Assembly: GCF_000020585.3 (NCBI RefSeq)
Contig: NC_011138.3
Location: 2,584,324-2,648,323, forward strand
DNA: 64,000 nucleotides
Direction: 5' to 3'
Source: Alteromonas mediterranea DE
GTDB lineage: Bacteria; Pseudomonadota; Gammaproteobacteria; Enterobacterales; Alteromonadaceae
The notes beneath the pieces are model-generated. The model made no database searches. It had not been told where the DNA came from and worked only from the letters and a program-made list of their open reading frames with translations. How positions within the stretch are numbered: position 1 is the stretch's first letter; each line of letters begins with the position of its first letter. Positions 58,389 to 64,000 of this stretch are shown here, piece after piece. A program made the position numbers and the translations under genes.

Positions 58389-59276
58389 CTATGCCGTATA
58401 GGCAGCTTGTTCTGCAGTATACCCTGGCGCAATAGCAAGATTATCCGTATCAGCAAGGCTTTGGCGGTTTTTAAGCCAAAGTTGATATTCACCTGAACGC
58501 AAACTTGCATGCTTGGTACAGTCTACATTCCAGCGCCTCAGTAAATAGCCCGCCATAGCGGCGCGTACTTCTAAGGTGAGTACGCCTTCTTCCATCGCAT
58601 AATCAAGCTCAATGGCAGTAGGAAATTTAATGTTTTTAGGGTGAGGCACAATCTCAAGAGGGATCAACCTTCCCCACTCTTCATCCTGCTCAATGCACTC
58701 ATGCACTTCAGGCTCTGCTTTAACCGTTACCTTGCTAATGCGGGTTAATACAAAGTCTCGAAAGCTCTGCGACTTTCTGTCAAATGCGCGAACATGCCAT
58801 CGCTGACCATTATCAACAATACTATGGGGCACAAGTTCACGTGCGCCACTGCCGCTAGATAACGATGTGTAAATAACGCTCATCGCTTTTTTGTTAACTA
58901 TGGCTTGTACTACTTTCGCTACCACAAAAATATCAGGTACGTTCAGCGAAGACGCACTTTCTACCGGAAAGTGCAAATCGCCAATGGCATCAAACCCGTC
59001 TGATATGTCGTTGGCAAGCTTTACCAAGGTACGTTTGGCATCGTGCTCGAAAACTGGAAGAAAGTTTTCTGTTTGAAAGTAACGCTTTTCTCTTGGATCG
59101 TAGATTAAGTTATCGGGCGCTAGTTCTTTGTAGAGCGTAAAGTCACGAGAGCCGGCCGATAGCCCCACTTCAAAGCGATTTATTAAGTCTTGGCGATGAA
59201 TAGCCCCTTTAAACAAAAGGCAGAAATCGATATACGCCAGTCGTTGGCGTTGAGAAAAAGAAATGGTTTCTAACAT
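58389..59276 (-). CDS. WYL-domain transcriptional regulator, BrxR/CapW type
   Basis: A 295-residue regulator of three parts. A winged helix-turn-helix N-terminus (about 5-95) reads SFSQRQRLAYIDFCLLFKGAIHRQDLINRFEVG, DFTLYKELAPDNLIYDPREKRYF. The WYL domain follows (about 120-200, with LVPHSIVDNGQRWHVRAFDRKSQSFRDFVLTRI). The C-terminal dimer extension ends with LRRWNVDCTKHASLRSGEYQLWLKNR. This architecture is that of BrxR and CapW, which repress BREX and CBASS operons and respond to a nucleic-acid-like ligand. No defence operon is next to it here. I chose the ATG at 59276; a GTG three codons upstream is possible. Confidence 0.85.
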   Translation of the reverse strand: MLETISFSQRQRLAYIDFCLLFKGAIHRQDLINRFEVGLSAGSRDFTLYKELAPDNLIYDPREKRYFQTENFLPVFEHDAKRTLVKLANDISDGFDAIGDLHFPVESASSLNVPDIFVVAKVVQAIVNKKAMSVIYTSLSSGSGARELVPHSIVDNGQRWHVRAFDRKSQSFRDFVLTRISKVTVKAEPEVHECIEQDEEWGRLIPLEIVPHPKNIKFPTAIELDYAMEEGVLTLEVRAAMAGYLLRRWNVDCTKHASLRSGEYQLWLKNRQSLADTDNLAIAPGYTAEQAAYTA

Positions 59277-59344
59277 GGTGCGCACTTATTGTAATTTTAT
59301 TCAGTGTGGTTCATTTAAAGCCGCATGTAAATAGCAAAAGAAAT

Positions 59345-60209
59345 ATCGAGTAGGGTGAGGCTTGCGCCTCATCCCTCTCACAGAACCGTACGTACGGGCC
59401 TCGTATACGGCTCCTGCATACTTCATATCACTTGCTAAGTGACACAATGCTAATTTGCAATCTAGTATCGTGCGCCCTATGGACATCGTTCATTTTCTAA
59501 CATTGTGGTAACTTTCATTGCAGGGTTTGGCGTTCTAGCACTGAGGCAATCTACCAAATTTGACTACAATTACTTCCCATATACGGCCTGTCTCACCAGA
59601 CATCACTATTCCTAGCGCACCGATTCGACTTGTCCCGCTGATCAGGCGGCTTGTGTATCAATGATAAAAAAAACTCACAACTCATCAGAGTCTTAAAGTC
59701 TGCTTCCCCCCTTCGCAATCCATTTAAGCTTTTGGCTAAAATGGATCCTATCAAACACAATGCTGATAGTCGGCTTGGTTTTACCCTCCACACCATTACT
59801 GGCTTTCATCGGCCTAGCCTTACTCACTACTACGGGTTCATCTGCCACCTCACACTCGCAACATTCTTGGATCACTCCTTGAACGATACGTCCAACCATT
59901 TGATTGGATCCAATGCCAGGCTTCCCCAGTTACTGTTCTGGTAACCACGTTATGGCTCCCTGTTAGAAATTCCACCCTCAAACACAAAACAGGTCTGACT
60001 GAGTATCGGGCTTCGCGCTATTTTGCACGCTTACCCACCTGCCTTGCCGAATCAGGTTCACTTTCATTGTGTACCTCTAACTTCCTATGGCTTCCTTCGG
60101 ACCCTGTCGTTGGCCAACAACGCCCTTGCCATTCGGATTATCTTCCCCTCAGTCAGGGTGATTCAGGTTTCTTTCAACCTGACGGGTTTGCCAGCTTCGC
60201 TGGGCAAAC
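59345..60209 (-). mobile_element. Degenerate group II intron (ribozyme ends retained, most of the ORF lost)
   Basis: On the minus strand the 5' end starts GTTTG (near the GTGYG consensus) directly after the T run of the PEP-CTERM terminator, followed by domain-I-like sequence such as GGCAAGGGCGTTGTTGG and GGGTCCGAAGGAAGC. The 3' end has a domain V hairpin with catalytic AGC triad, a domain VI-like hairpin and TACTCGAT at the boundary. Only about 865 bases remain; intact introns with reverse transcriptase are usually near 2 kb. The open frame at 59693-59899 looks like the start of the lost maturase. Insertion right behind a terminator fits the habit of class C introns, but the class is not established. 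Confidence 0.72.
59383..59413 (-). ncRNA. Group II intron domain V
   Basis: Minus-strand GAGCCGTA pairs with TACGGTTC, and TACG with CGTA, with a two-base CG bulge and the AGC catalytic triad near the 5' end. At 31 bases it is 3 shorter than the usual 34, with a changed terminal loop, in keeping with decay. Confidence 0.75.
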
Positions 60210-60236
60210 AAAAAAGCCCAGCACTTGGCTGGGCTT
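60210..60236 (-). terminator. Terminator of the PEP-CTERM gene
   Basis: AAGCCCAGC and GCTGGGCTT form a 9-base stem with a 5-base loop, followed on the minus strand by six Ts and then the intron start. Confidence 0.85.
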
Positions 60237-60256
60237 AGCTTTTAAGTATTTAAGGT

Positions 60257-60856
60257 TTACTGCTTTGCACGTTTGCGTGCGAAAACCATACCGCCTAGAG
60301 CTAAAAGAGATAGCGCAAAGGTACCTGGTGCAGGTACTTGGGCGATTTCAAAGCTTGTGCTCTCAGTTGAAACGTTTGGTAAAGCAACCCCGCCGTTATT
60401 GGTTATCACCGAACTTACAGGTGATAACTCTACAATGCCAGCATTAAGCGCTAGTAAATTGAACGAAAACAGTTCGACAGTACTTTTACCATTTTGCGCA
60501 AATTCAGCACCTTCAAATAAAGGAACTATCGCGGCAAGAAATGATTCAATTGAGATAATACTTAAAGTACTTTCGGTGCTTCCATTAGTACCTACAACTG
60601 GCTGATTACCTAATGCGCCTAAGTCAAAGATAGACGAAACATCAAGGCTTAAAAGTGTACTATCGAAATTAAAAAGTGCGTTATAGCCATAAAAGTAAGT
60701 CTGAACGGCGTTATCGTCGATCAACTCAGTTGCACTTACCGTGGCCATTATTGTTTCGCCAACGCTATAAGTGTCTTTATCTGTTGTAATCGAAATTAGT
60801 GCTGCGTTTGCGTTGAAAGTAGCGACAGCCATTATTAGTAAAAAGAATTTTTTCAT
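60257..60856 (-). CDS. PEP-CTERM-like exported protein with cohesin-like domain
   Basis: A 199-residue protein. A signal peptide (about 1-18, MKKFFLLIMAVATFNANA) precedes a beta-rich domain (about 19-170) whose opening DKDTYSVGETIMATVSATEL and FNFDSTLLSLD are like type I cohesins and related beta-sandwiches. The C-terminus VPAPGTFALSLLALGGMVFARKRAK has the three-part PEP-CTERM layout, though the usual Glu is Ala. That signal is recognised by exosortase and marks exopolysaccharide-associated proteins. It starts 16 bases after the dockerin-bearing nuclease and is in the same operon. I chose the ATG at 60856 with AGGA upstream. Confidence 0.78.
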   Translation of the reverse strand: MKKFFLLIMAVATFNANAALISITTDKDTYSVGETIMATVSATELIDDNAVQTYFYGYNALFNFDSTLLSLDVSSIFDLGALGNQPVVGTNGSTESTLSIISIESFLAAIVPLFEGAEFAQNGKSTVELFSFNLLALNAGIVELSPVSSVITNNGGVALPNVSTESTSFEIAQVPAPGTFALSLLALGGMVFARKRAKQ

Positions 60857-60872
60857 TGTTATTTTCCTAAAA

Positions 60873-63800
60873 TTAAATTGCACAGTTAGCGCGTGTACAC
60901 ATCGCCATTAATGCTTGAATATCGAAGAAGCTGATTTGGCCGTCGCCGTTAAAATCGTAGCTTTCAGCCGTCGCTTGCCCTTGTAAAAACAGTTGATAGA
61001 AGGCCATGATATCGTTGTAATCGACATCGTTATCACCATCAAAGTCTCCTACTGTCACTTCTTCTGGGAAGTTAAGCACAACCACTACCGGGTCATGATC
61101 TGACGAGCGATAAGCATCCGCGCCATAATAGCTAGAAAGCTGAGTTTCTGATTTGAATTCAACGTTATAGTCGAACACGCGAGGTTCATCGGCATTGATG
61201 TGCCATACCGTTGCGTCTACCACATATTCAGTTAACGATGGACTTGATAAAGCGTGGTCGAGATATCCCATTTCGCCGCCGAAGCTATACGAATAAGCAC
61301 TATCGCCATCAAAGAAGTTAACTAAGTTACTGTAGCCAGCCTCTTCAAGCGCAAGGATAGGCTCTTCCTTCGCATAGGCATTTAAATCACCCATTACGAT
61401 AACGCGGTCAGACAAAATATCGCTGTTTTGCTCAACAAGTGAAATAATGCCTTGTGCTGCTTGAGTACGCAGTTCGTTCCAGCAGCCTTGGCCGTCACCT
61501 AAATCGGCATTGTTACCCGTAGCACTGCCACAGCTTCCTTTCGACTTGAAGTGGTTTATCGCTAAGGTAAAGTCTTCGCCATTGCTGTTCACACTAAAGC
61601 TTTGTAGTAAAGGCTGACGGTTACCATAGTCAAACGGTGCGTTAGATGAAGTAACAGGGTTACCCTGAAGTGAAACTACCGCTGGCTTATAGATAATGCC
61701 TACAGCTATTTCATCTCCGCCTAGTTGAGACTCTAATGCAACATAGCTGTACTCATCGCTGCCTAGTTCAGCGTTAACGCTGTCAACTAATGTCGCAATC
61801 GCCGATTCACTGCTATAGCCATCGTTTTCAATTTCAACAAGGCCAAGTACATCGGCATTCATCGCTACAATAGCAGCAATGGTTTTCACTTTCTGACGTT
61901 CGAACTCGGCAACTGAATCTGCGCCGCGAGGGGTCGGGAACTCAGGGCCATTGAAGTAATTGAGCACATTAAAGCTAGCCACTTTTACATCACCGATAGC
62001 ATTTAGCTGTGGTGCAGCAATTCGTGGATTAGTGCGCACGGTTTGAATATCACCAACAGGGATGAGGTTGTAAGCACCAAAGGCATAATGTAATACACCT
62101 TCTAAGGCCTCAACACTGTCTCCCAAACGCAGTGGGTTGTTATGCGATAATCCGCCAACAGGGAAAGGAATATCATCCAAATTCTGTGATGTTTTTCCGT
62201 CATCAACCAATAAGGTGTTTCGTGCATTGGCTTCAGCTAGCGCCAACGCTTCTTGTGAACCTGCTACAAACTGGTTAGTAGGAATCATTAAGCGCTGAGA
62301 CGACACGTTGAACTGACCGTAGCGACCAAGATTGTAGATATCAGAGACTTTGAGCGTTTGCTCAAAACTAATATGCATGCCCTCTAGTGCTTCTAAATCA
62401 GTACCCGGGCTAAACGGCATAGCAACTGACGTGTAAAGCACGCTGCTACCAGACCCCGTAACCTCTACATCCGCAGATAAAGCGATTTGAGTTACACCAA
62501 AGCGCTCACCTACTGTACCTTGTAAACGCACCGCATCGCCCGCTACAGGTAGGCTAAATGAACCTGCGTAAACAAACACACCCTCAGATGTTGATGTATT
62601 GTCATCCGAATCAGCTGCTTCTTCCTGAACGAAAAACCCGCTCATATCAGGCACCACTTTTGTGACGACCGCTTCAACAATGACATCACTGCCAATAAGT
62701 GCCGACTCCTCGCCGTCGCCTTGAATTGCGCTGATGAGTACCACTTCAGGAGTGGGATCCGTTGGGTCGGTTGGGTAGGTTGGGTCTGTCGGGTCTGTCG
62801 GGTCGGTTGGGTCAGTAGGTTCACTTACTGAACCGTTATGGGAGCCAAAATTACTTAGCGTATCCTTAGGAAAGCTATCCCACTCATCAGTAGTAAAAGC
62901 AGGGTTTCGGTTAGCGTTTCCGCCTGTCACGGAACTCTTACGCACTAACGTGACGTCTTTACCCCAATTAGTCCTAACGCCGTAAGTACCTAGTGCATCT
63001 ACCACTTGGCCGTTGTATACCAACTCAACGTAATCGTCGCCGTTAAAATTTATTACGAAGCTGCTAAGGGTAGAACCACTTGTCAGTAAGGCATCGGCAT
63101 CTGCATGAGCAAATGTTGCCACACCACCTGCAGGAATTTCGCCTTCTAGCGCTAAAACTTTACGGTCTGCATCGGCGGTATCGCCGTTTGAAAGTAGTAC
63201 CAACTCATAGCCAGATAGGCTTACAGGCTGAGTAGAACTATTGAAAAGCTCTATCGCTTTGTTAAAGCTACCACCCTCAATATACTCTGAAATGTAAACG
63301 CTATTGGTTGATGGTGCTGTGTCGCCTCCTGTATCGCCACCTGTGTCACCACCGGTATCACCACCTGTGTCACCACCGGTATCACCACCGGTATCACCAC
63401 CTGTGTCACCGCCCGAGTCTCCGCCTGTGCCATCGCAGCTTTCGTTGAAGATAAGCGAGGCCAGTTCCGGCTTGTCAATAAACGGGTTTCGATTACCTTG
63501 GAATTCATAAACGCGTTCATTACGGCGACGTTCGAATTCATCTACTGGGTCGCTTTCATGCCACTGAAGCAAAACACAAAGCTTGCCGAAGGCCGCTTCG
63601 TCAGTAGTGGTTAAGCGATTCAGCAAGACTAAGTCTTCTTCCGTATCACCCGCGGTATTGCCATCGTATCGCACATCCATGTAAAGCATAGAGCGCGCAA
63701 CGTCACCTTTTACCGCGTCACGTGGTTCAAACGAATCACTGTCTACGCGGTTTGCTGGCGCTTCATTAAGTTCGTTATCGCTGAAGTCAAAATCTAGATT

Positions 63801-64000
63801 CCCGCGTGAGCTGTTAACTGAAATGTCAGTAGGACGTAGGTGCAGGATGTCGCTATAAGCCGTTAAACTTGTGCTTGAGAAGCCATGACTTTTCGCCCAA
63901 ACATGCTCGCGGTTCCAATTGTCTTGGTTAGTACTTTGACTACCGCTTCCGTTAGTAAATTTATCTTGCGATATGCCCTTGTAAAACAAAATGACGTTTT
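60873..64000 (-). CDS. Multidomain extracellular nuclease (endonuclease I + ExeM-like) with C-terminal dockerin, partial
   Basis: The frame is open to the window edge, so the true start and signal peptide lie outside; at least 1038 residues remain. In order (residues from 63989): an endonuclease I domain (about 1-190; NREHVWAKSHGF, DILHLRPTDISVNSSRGN), a (GGDT)n linker (about 187-223), a lamin-tail domain (about 225-385; ISEYIEGGSFNKAIELFNSS), a (DPT)n linker (about 390-412), an OB-fold-like part, an EEP nuclease domain (about 665-970; VASFNVLNYFNG, RVIVMGDLNAYAKEEP, RSSDHDPVVVVL), and a dockerin-like pair of EF-loops (DFDGDNDVDYNDI and DFNGDGQISFFDI, about 980-1035). The LTD-EEP part is ExeM/NucH-like. 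It should degrade extracellular DNA. Confidence 0.9.
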   Translation of the reverse strand, partial: NVILFYKGISQDKFTNGSGSQSTNQDNWNREHVWAKSHGFSSTSLTAYSDILHLRPTDISVNSSRGNLDFDFSDNELNEAPANRVDSDSFEPRDAVKGDVARSMLYMDVRYDGNTAGDTEEDLVLLNRLTTTDEAAFGKLCVLLQWHESDPVDEFERRRNERVYEFQGNRNPFIDKPELASLIFNESCDGTGGDSGGDTGGDTGGDTGGDTGGDTGGDTGGDTGGDTAPSTNSVYISEYIEGGSFNKAIELFNSSTQPVSLSGYELVLLSNGDTADADRKVLALEGEIPAGGVATFAHADADALLTSGSTLSSFVINFNGDDYVELVYNGQVVDALGTYGVRTNWGKDVTLVRKSSVTGGNANRNPAFTTDEWDSFPKDTLSNFGSHNGSVSEPTDPTDPTDPTDPTYPTDPTDPTPEVVLISAIQGDGEESALIGSDVIVEAVVTKVVPDMSGFFVQEEAADSDDNTSTSEGVFVYAGSFSLPVAGDAVRLQGTVGERFGVTQIALSADVEVTGSGSSVLYTSVAMPFSPGTDLEALEGMHISFEQTLKVSDIYNLGRYGQFNVSSQRLMIPTNQFVAGSQEALALAEANARNTLLVDDGKTSQNLDDIPFPVGGLSHNNPLRLGDSVEALEGVLHYAFGAYNLIPVGDIQTVRTNPRIAAPQLNAIGDVKVASFNVLNYFNGPEFPTPRGADSVAEFERQKVKTIAAIVAMNADVLGLVEIENDGYSSESAIATLVDSVNAELGSDEYSYVALESQLGGDEIAVGIIYKPAVVSLQGNPVTSSNAPFDYGNRQPLLQSFSVNSNGEDFTLAINHFKSKGSCGSATGNNADLGDGQGCWNELRTQAAQGIISLVEQNSDILSDRVIVMGDLNAYAKEEPILALEEAGYSNLVNFFDGDSAYSYSFGGEMGYLDHALSSPSLTEYVVDATVWHINADEPRVFDYNVEFKSETQLSSYYGADAYRSSDHDPVVVVLNFPEEVTVGDFDGDNDVDYNDIMAFYQLFLQGQATAESYDFNGDGQISFFDIQALMAMCTRANCAI
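62752..62820 (-). repeat. 9-bp repeat coding for (DPT)n linker
   Basis: Repeated GGGTCNGTT-like units encode Asp-Pro-Thr linker residues in the nuclease. Such runs change length by slippage. Confidence 0.85.
63319..63428 (-). repeat. 12-bp repeat coding for (GGDT)n linker
   Basis: About nine 12-base units encode Gly-Gly-Asp-Thr in the nuclease linker between endonuclease I and the lamin-tail domain. Alternating variants (GGTATCACC / TGTGTCACC) suggest unequal recombination. Confidence 0.88.

Follow-up and report, generated by a model that had tools for sequence, protein, structure and literature searches.

We identified in Alteromonas mediterranea DE two adjacent genes, encoding a dockerin-bearing double nuclease and a small cohesin protein with a PEP-CTERM tail, which probably form a module that keeps the nuclease at the surface in trans. 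In this reading the dockerin would act as a trans-acting anchor by binding the nuclease's own exosortase-sorted cohesin, with binding and cleavage both inferred. The domains of the two proteins, the order and spacing of their genes, the exosortase cluster of the genome, the conservation of the pair and the exchange of its enzyme are observed, and form the basis of the module. These observations support a preliminary description of the locus, in which the small protein was suggested to tether the nuclease, presumably by direct binding. Positions refer to the 64,000-nucleotide stretch analysed (the window), and all features lie on its reverse strand.

Domain architecture of the gene pair

The nuclease gene, which encodes 1346 aa in full, occupies 60873..64000, the 913 bases of its 5' end falling outside the window, and joins Endonuclease I, a lamin tail domain (LTD), an ExeM/NucH nuclease and a dockerin. 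The part of the Endonuclease_1 domain inside the window is at 63465..64000 (PF04231), the LTD at 62985..63317 (PF00932), and the exonuclease-endonuclease-phosphatase (EEP) catalytic domain at 61095..61976 (PF03372). The protein scores 623.9 bits with NF033681 (ExeM/NucH nuclease; cut-off 300). The part inside the window does not reach NF033680, the model for ExeM with GlyGly-CTERM (438.4 versus 1300 bits), and its C-terminus is a dockerin. No membrane or sorting tail is visible there; the dockerin occupies the position held by a C-terminal tail in some other ExeM proteins.

Two calcium loops of dockerin type had been proposed at the end of the nuclease, and PF00404 places a type I dockerin with two calcium-binding loops at 60906..61049 (27.3 to 31.4 bits, cut-off 22.9). 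A structural search with this domain returned 2ozn_B as the top row, rows within 1 Z being tied. The gene ends in a short tail, CTRANCAI (60876..60899), with a C-x4-C motif that also ends 127 of 138 dockerins collected from such pairs. PF00404 found one dockerin in the genome containing the window.

The small gene (60257..60856, 199 aa; ORF and AlphaFold2 model) lies 16 bases downstream, confirming the reported adjacency. It is preceded by a candidate ribosome-binding site, AGGA (60865..60868), and followed by a hairpin resembling an intrinsic terminator, of nine pairs and a T-rich run (60214..60236). By inspection of the sequence pattern, residues 1–18 (60803..60856) are a likely signal peptide. 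Residues 19–172 (60341..60802) form a predicted cohesin domain: the AlphaFold2 model has the cohesin beta-sandwich fold, all 50 Foldseek rows shown are cohesin entries, and the top row of a structural search is 2vo8 (rows within 1 Z tied), bearing out the suggestion of a cohesin-like beta domain. The small-protein family profile matches PDB cohesins at 5e-11. PF00963 searched with the window protein alone gave no match at E<=1, and 11 of 30 relatives matched at E<=0.1, so that a check by Pfam only would wrongly reject the cohesin. PF00963 likewise found nothing in the whole genome, where the anchor-family profile gave one full-length match and one partial match (model positions 69–196, E=5.7e-4). 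Translated cohesin proteins in sets of 30 and 34 are 172–205 aa long, with room for one cohesin apiece. Five cohesin matches seemed to contain in-frame stops, which proved to be normal gene ends.

The tail at 60260..60340 comprises VPAPG, a hydrophobic helix and a basic end. It had been called PEP-CTERM-like, and this holds: PF07589 scores 21.5 bits (cut-off 20.7), TIGR02595 (PEP-CTERM domain) is barely reached (16.2 versus 16), and residues 179–198 are helical in the model. Of the full-length PEP-CTERM protein families in NCBIfam, none is matched above its cut-off by the window protein. The genome encodes an exosortase (PF09721, 218.8 bits), recognized as exosortase A (XrtA; 307.8 versus an NCBIfam cut-off of 208), in a polysaccharide cluster whose deacetylase, EpsB_2, export and chain-length genes exceed their NCBIfam cut-offs. 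Across genomes, an exosortase was matched in 108 of 112 with a strong match versus 153 of 283 others; the four without one count against anchoring. Genus g19 gave one weak exosortase match among ten hand-picked genomes, and its cohesins carry a plain membrane helix in all three loci seen.

Recurrence of the pair in other genomes

The pair is found well beyond this genome. Among the 150 small-protein matches listed, a dockerin-bearing gene lies directly upstream in 139 of the 147 places examined, and the paired loci span 107 genomes and 28 genera of one family; similar loci are also found in further families of Gammaproteobacteria. In 27 genomes more than one listed pair is present. A comparison by coordinates only had given 50 of 150 pairs among the matches listed; many such dockerins are missed or left unlisted by PF00404, and reading the loci therefore raised the number. 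Eight places lack an upstream dockerin gene and count against the pairing; one of them is masked sequence and two have a dockerin gene downstream. Within a set of 110 loci, L010 duplicates L043, and L023 duplicates L047 at a masked place; neither place is counted twice in the 150-place census.

The seed of our in-house dockerin model came from genes lying upstream of cohesins and chosen by a two-loop pattern, so the model's upstream matches arise partly by construction. Outside the upstream gene it matched in only two of the 110 loci (L099 and L103), in each case a gene downstream of the cohesin. Independently of that model, PF00404 matches 55 of 69 non-redundant partners at E<=0.01. The partners include M9 collagenases as well as nucleases, along with one cluster of M43 peptidases and one that is porphyranase-like. 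Thus the two-gene part of the proposed nuclease-anchoring module stands and its restriction to nucleases does not. Judging from the sequences, an arrangement found with further digestive enzymes across many relatives looks like a general way of keeping such enzymes at the surface.

The named ExeM loci came from the best 80 of 556 relatives in an ExeM alignment search, two of which (L199, L226) were dropped for having <700 bases downstream (n=78). A cohesin gene lies downstream of 33 of the 42 nucleases that bear a dockerin versus one of the 36 that do not (Fisher 1.4e-12), and the sole dockerin-negative exception (L190) does have a dockerin that the model missed. Two results count against anchoring: the cohesin model matches nothing downstream in nine of the 42 ExeM loci with a dockerin, and nothing directly downstream of 24 of 40 dockerins chosen at random from those without a listed cohesin.

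Divergence of cohesin and dockerin

In six close Alteromonas relatives the cohesin domain is 38–54% identical to that of the window, and in four of them (L004–L007) the dockerin is 92–95% identical. The canonical dockerin-binding face of a cohesin is formed by strands 3, 5, 6 and 8; strands 5, 6 and 8 are among the less conserved parts in this comparison. Fast divergence of the cohesin where the dockerin does not diverge counts against a simple lock and key. In one Alteromonas (L008) the dockerin and the cohesin are both strongly divergent, although the nuclease part before them is 95% identical and the PEP tail after them 92% identical. Over 15 comparisons, cohesin dN exceeded nuclease-part dN ~3- to 23-fold. 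As dS was also higher in 14 of the 15, fast evolution and exchange are indistinguishable here, and positive selection was considered as the cause and set aside.

Mapping onto the cohesin tree requires at least 19 switches of enzyme partner and only three of dockerin type, compared with minima of 52 and 9 in 200 shuffles. Cohesin–dockerin distances correlate more strongly for true pairs than for within-genome swaps (0 of 300 swaps), a result that linked inheritance alone would also be expected to produce.

Proposed mechanism and alternative explanations

We propose that the nuclease is exported with a dockerin in place of its own C-terminal tail, and that the next gene supplies its receptor, a single cohesin exported via its signal peptide and held by the PEP-CTERM helix. 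Exosortase A would process the small protein and deliver it to the surface or exopolysaccharide. There the cohesin may capture the dockerin, in a calcium-dependent manner by analogy with known pairs, so that cutting of DNA would take place on the cell surface or within the matrix, with the products remaining near the cell, to its presumed benefit.

The pair might instead be co-regulated without binding, the dockerin using calcium to steady the enzyme or guide its export and the small protein serving as an exopolysaccharide matrix protein whose cohesin fold takes another ligand. The much faster divergence of the small protein in near-identical loci would fit, as would the matrix location indicated by the PEP-CTERM tail and the dockerin-bearing ExeM loci without a downstream cohesin match. 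We nonetheless regard this as unlikely, since the pairing is kept across unrelated enzymes and 28 genera, the cohesin in ExeM loci goes with the dockerin rather than with the nuclease, dockerin and cohesin differ together in L008, and dockerin type follows cohesin lineage.

Two further readings are compatible with binding. The cohesin could be a general receptor for dockerins encoded elsewhere or by neighbours, giving a small cellulosome-like assembly; dockerins of some relatives bear the same tail with no adjacent cohesin (e.g., L229, L247), and genomes with several pairs would offer such partners. We think this doubtful, at roughly one chance in four, given the single dockerin match in the window's genome, the adjacency of the pairs, the lower distance correlation after swapping and the one-cohesin size of the translated proteins. 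Slightly less probable still is release, with the cohesin a transient holding site at the inner membrane pending further export of the enzyme, and exosortase processing freeing the complex into the medium. Shewanella ExeM is reported in the inner-membrane fraction, with its C-terminal anchor little needed for extracellular activity (PMC6085458), and exosortase is the proposed PEP-CTERM sorting enzyme (PMC3237569); the plain-membrane-helix cohesins of genus g19 mildly favour lasting attachment.

Retention in trans thus remains our preferred reading. We would go on, with some reserve and on balance in favour, to suggest that exosortase-bearing Gammaproteobacteria use the dockerin with its C-x4-C tail as an interchangeable code for anchoring in trans. 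Such a cassette could be joined to many catalytic domains, would move together with its matching receptor, a PEP-CTERM protein with a single cohesin, and would be a trans counterpart of GlyGly-CTERM, PEP-CTERM and LPXTG tails. If true, cohesin–dockerin assembly would extend from cellulosomes to one-enzyme surface anchors in Gram-negative bacteria, exosortase would gain an indirect role in hydrolase display, and there would be a way for secreted nucleases, collagenases and peptidases to stay near the cell and not be lost as shared goods. A group of PEP-CTERM proteins is given a testable role, and many natural cohesin–dockerin pairs are offered for orthogonal protein display.

Comparison with known systems

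Our literature search returned no paper joining dockerin with PEP-CTERM, an older mention being possible, and none combining dockerin with an extracellular nuclease. Among the matches listed, exosortase occurred together with dockerin or cohesin only in PMC5244752, on methanotrophic archaea, and by title and opening of the abstract none of the papers on dockerin, cohesin and Alteromonas concerns such a pair.

The module shares with the cellulosomes of Acetivibrio, Clostridium and Ruminococcus the same two folds, an exported dockerin enzyme and a cohesin protein that carries a surface anchor of its own. It differs in having one cohesin per anchor in a dedicated gene pair, where cellulosomes have multi-cohesin scaffoldins, and in relying on exosortase, where they use SLH domains or sortase (Ruminococcus anchoring scaffoldins are sortase-linked; PMC11557425). 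The substrates of the partner domains here are DNA, collagen and proteins, and probably also algal polymers, and the hosts are Gram-negative, largely marine bacteria. A multi-cohesin scaffoldin with several dockerin enzymes was not found in the window's genome, which gave one dockerin match and one full-length single-cohesin anchor match.

Use of cohesin and dockerin beyond cellulose breakdown is shared with Clostridium perfringens NagJ/NagH (2ozn, 2vo8) and the Archaeoglobus cohesin 2xdh. In NagJ/NagH the cohesin is carried on the enzyme, and no separate exosortase-sorted anchor protein is known there. With the extracellular nucleases ExeM/NucH and Xds the window nuclease has the LTD and EEP core in common; unlike them it adds an N-terminal Endonuclease I, and a dockerin replaces the GlyGly-CTERM-type helix-plus-basic tail. 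The small protein bears the signal of the PEP-CTERM/exosortase A system, and XrtA and polysaccharide genes are present. Unlike in the usual form of that system, the sorted protein consists, beyond signal peptide and tail, of one cohesin, so that the exosortase system would anchor another protein indirectly.

The gene pair and its genome

The upstream nuclease gene (60873..64000, - strand) reaches the window end and lies partly beyond it, encoding at full length a 1346-aa protein with Endonuclease I, lamin tail and ExeM/NucH nuclease domains and a C-terminal type I dockerin. The small gene (60257..60856, - strand; 199 aa), with its cohesin domain at 60341-60802, starts 16 bases past the nuclease stop, carries AGGA 8 bases 5' of its ATG and has a terminator-like hairpin 3' of it. 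Domain matches and gene spacing bear out the preliminary description of a nuclease with a C-terminal dockerin closely followed by a cohesin/PEP-CTERM gene. Scans detected neither a terminator-like site in the gap separating the genes nor, within 59200-61200, anything promoter-like on the strand they share, so the pair looks like a single predicted transcription unit. Downstream lies a 298-aa gene (58389-59285, - strand), which we take to be regulator-like and whose position is kept in Alteromonas relatives (loci L004-L011).

The HMM search for dockerins proposed in that description returned one PF00404 match in the window's genome (E≤0.001). The A1 profile, built on the small cohesin/PEP-CTERM protein family, gave one full-length and one partial match there, the latter (model positions 69-196, E=5.7e-4) in a different protein bearing a PEP-CTERM tail. 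A single exosortase, type A, is adjoined by a polysaccharide deacetylase, EpsB_2, an export protein and a chain-length determinant, each above its NCBIfam cut-off. The genome is equipped with what the pair would require.

Conservation of the pair

Within the family, 395 genomes were searched: the small protein by itself as query matched in 74 of them and the A1 profile in 242 (E≤0.001). Weaker profile matches can be PEP-CTERM tails only, so the census was confined to the 150 matches listed (all at least 79.2 bits; 112 genomes, 29 genera). The upstream gene was checked at 147 of these places, from PF00404 positions in the list or by inspection of the locus itself, and three were left out. The pair is found beyond this genome, a point the preliminary description had proposed to survey: among the matches listed, a dockerin-bearing gene lies immediately upstream of the cohesin gene at 139 of 147 places, spread over 107 genomes and 28 genera. 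The remaining eight include a masked stretch (L047) and two loci, L099 and L103, with the dockerin gene downstream instead. Census loci were chosen without use of the dockerin, and our dockerin model was itself seeded from upstream genes; PF00404, independent of that model, matches 55 of 69 non-redundant partners (E≤0.01). Outside the upstream gene, the model matched in L099 and L103 only (110 loci searched). In other families of the class, 9 of 18 loci (21 examined minus L119, L120 and L124 of the window's own family) have a dockerin match on one side or the other of the cohesin-like gene within the stretch fetched; the match in L136 is weak, and L131 has an intervening gene. We hold the pair to be a recurring two-gene module of an exported dockerin protein, often a hydrolase, and a single cohesin predicted to be exosortase-sorted; its domains, gene order and conservation are observed.

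Enzymes and dockerins

The partners at 101 loci with an upstream dockerin comprise 56 ExeM nucleases (one place being represented by two loci), clusters represented by an M9 collagenase (17), an M43 peptidase (10) and a porphyranase-like protein (6), three IgGFc-binding-like proteins, one pair and seven singletons, including a calcineurin-like phosphoesterase, a CBM6 protein and a BNR-repeat protein. A Pfam scan of ten partner representatives gave no match in two. The anchoring idea of the preliminary description holds, although its restriction to nucleases was too narrow given the collagenase, peptidase and porphyranase-like partners. The C-x4-C end is present in 127 of 138 dockerins from non-identical pairs and absent from 11. 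On a quick maximum-likelihood cohesin tree, changes number 3 for dockerin type and 19 for enzyme class, against minima of 9 and 52 in 200 shuffles. By these sequence comparisons, the enzyme is what varies across pairs, and the dockerin varies less. Dockerins of a second type, which lack the C-x4-C tail, are paired with cohesin-like genes of their own in L170, L190, L230, L234, L246, L252, L254, L260 and L262; L260 lies outside the 11 pairs typed short.

Of the best 80 of 556 ExeM relatives, 78 could be compared, at least 700 bases downstream being required. A cohesin gene follows 33 of 42 dockerin-bearing nucleases but only 1 of 36 dockerin-negative ones (Fisher 1.4e-12, loci treated as unrelated), and in this sole exception, L190, a dockerin is present that our model missed. 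In these loci the cohesin gene goes with the dockerin rather than with the nuclease. Nine of the 42 have no cohesin match downstream. In three ExeM nucleases (L164, L165, L169), two of Aliiglaciecola and one of an uncultured Alteromonadaceae bacterium, the dockerin ends in CSTR and no cohesin-model match follows; in Methylomonas, the ExeM of locus L202 has a dockerin-like end and precedes a 274-aa protein with a PEP-CTERM-like tail, which the cohesin model did not match.

Among 40 random dockerins of the 99 without a listed cohesin partner, 16 have a cohesin-model match directly downstream and 24 none. Some of these 24 share the C-x4-C tail, and such dockerins may use a cohesin encoded elsewhere. 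In five genomes of genus g5 (genome:contig G054:C105, G141:C1, G161:C31, G226:C73, G263:C1), the dockerin gene paired with a cohesin gene has another dockerin gene ~5.4 kb away; possibly two enzymes have one common anchor.

Divergence of the cohesin domain

Dockerin and cohesin distances correlate (Spearman 0.37, 113 pairs), and swapping partners within the 17 genomes with two or more of these pairs reduced the correlation in 300 of 300 trials; linkage by itself could be a sufficient cause. Weightier, albeit a single case, is L008. Compared with L003, it is 95% identical in the nuclease C-terminal part before the dockerin, 61% in the dockerin, 38% in the cohesin domain and 92% in the PEP tail, and in 90-base windows DNA identity falls at the boundary of catalytic domain and dockerin and is partly regained at the PEP tail. 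This reads as dockerin and cohesin having been replaced together.

Against the window's sequence, L004-L007 keep only 38-54% identity in the cohesin domain but 92-95% in the dockerin and nuclease part; across L004-L009, all close Alteromonas, the values are 38-54% for the cohesin domain, 85-95% for the nuclease C-terminal part and 62-96% for the PEP tail. In 15 comparisons, cohesin dN exceeds nuclease-part dN ~3- to 23-fold. Cohesin dS is also above nuclease-part dS in 14 of the 15, and fast evolution and exchange are therefore not separable, the variability pointing to either rapid evolution or repeated domain exchange. Strands 5, 6 and 8 are poorly conserved in the Alteromonas comparison, and the canonical dockerin-binding face comprises strands 8, 3, 6 and 5. 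If these bind the dockerin, either one unchanging dockerin has to accommodate many different cohesin surfaces or binding depends more on better-kept strands (e.g., 3). Fast cohesin divergence beside a constant dockerin does not fit well with anchoring in trans, and neither do the ExeM-borne and random dockerins with no cohesin match downstream.

Predicted membrane attachment and known sorting systems

Of the 112 genomes with a strong small-protein match, 108 have an exosortase match, versus 153 of the 283 others, genomes being treated as unrelated. Genus g19 gave one weak exosortase match among ten genomes picked from tables. Its cohesin-like genes (L263, L267, L268), recognised two by model and one by eye, each follow a dockerin gene, and the protein of each closes with a plain membrane helix and basic tail and has no PEP motif. 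This suggests that the constant feature would be membrane attachment rather than the PEP motif. We propose that an exosortase-sorted single cohesin would pair with the dockerin of its exported neighbour; binding, exosortase cleavage and cellular place are what we infer for the module.

No report of a dockerin enzyme with an exosortase-sorted single cohesin was found in the literature searched, which covers few subscription journals; the components are already known, and their combination was not met there. A hydrophobic helix with basic residues ends 12 of 38 dockerin-negative nucleases among all 80. Shewanella ExeM is reported to occur with the inner-membrane fraction and to have a putative anchor at its C-terminus (PMC6085458). 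GlyGly-CTERM, LPXTG and PEP-CTERM signals are described as being exchanged within one protein family (PMC3237569). In those families the sorting signal stands at the C-terminus, whereas here the dockerin occupies that position.
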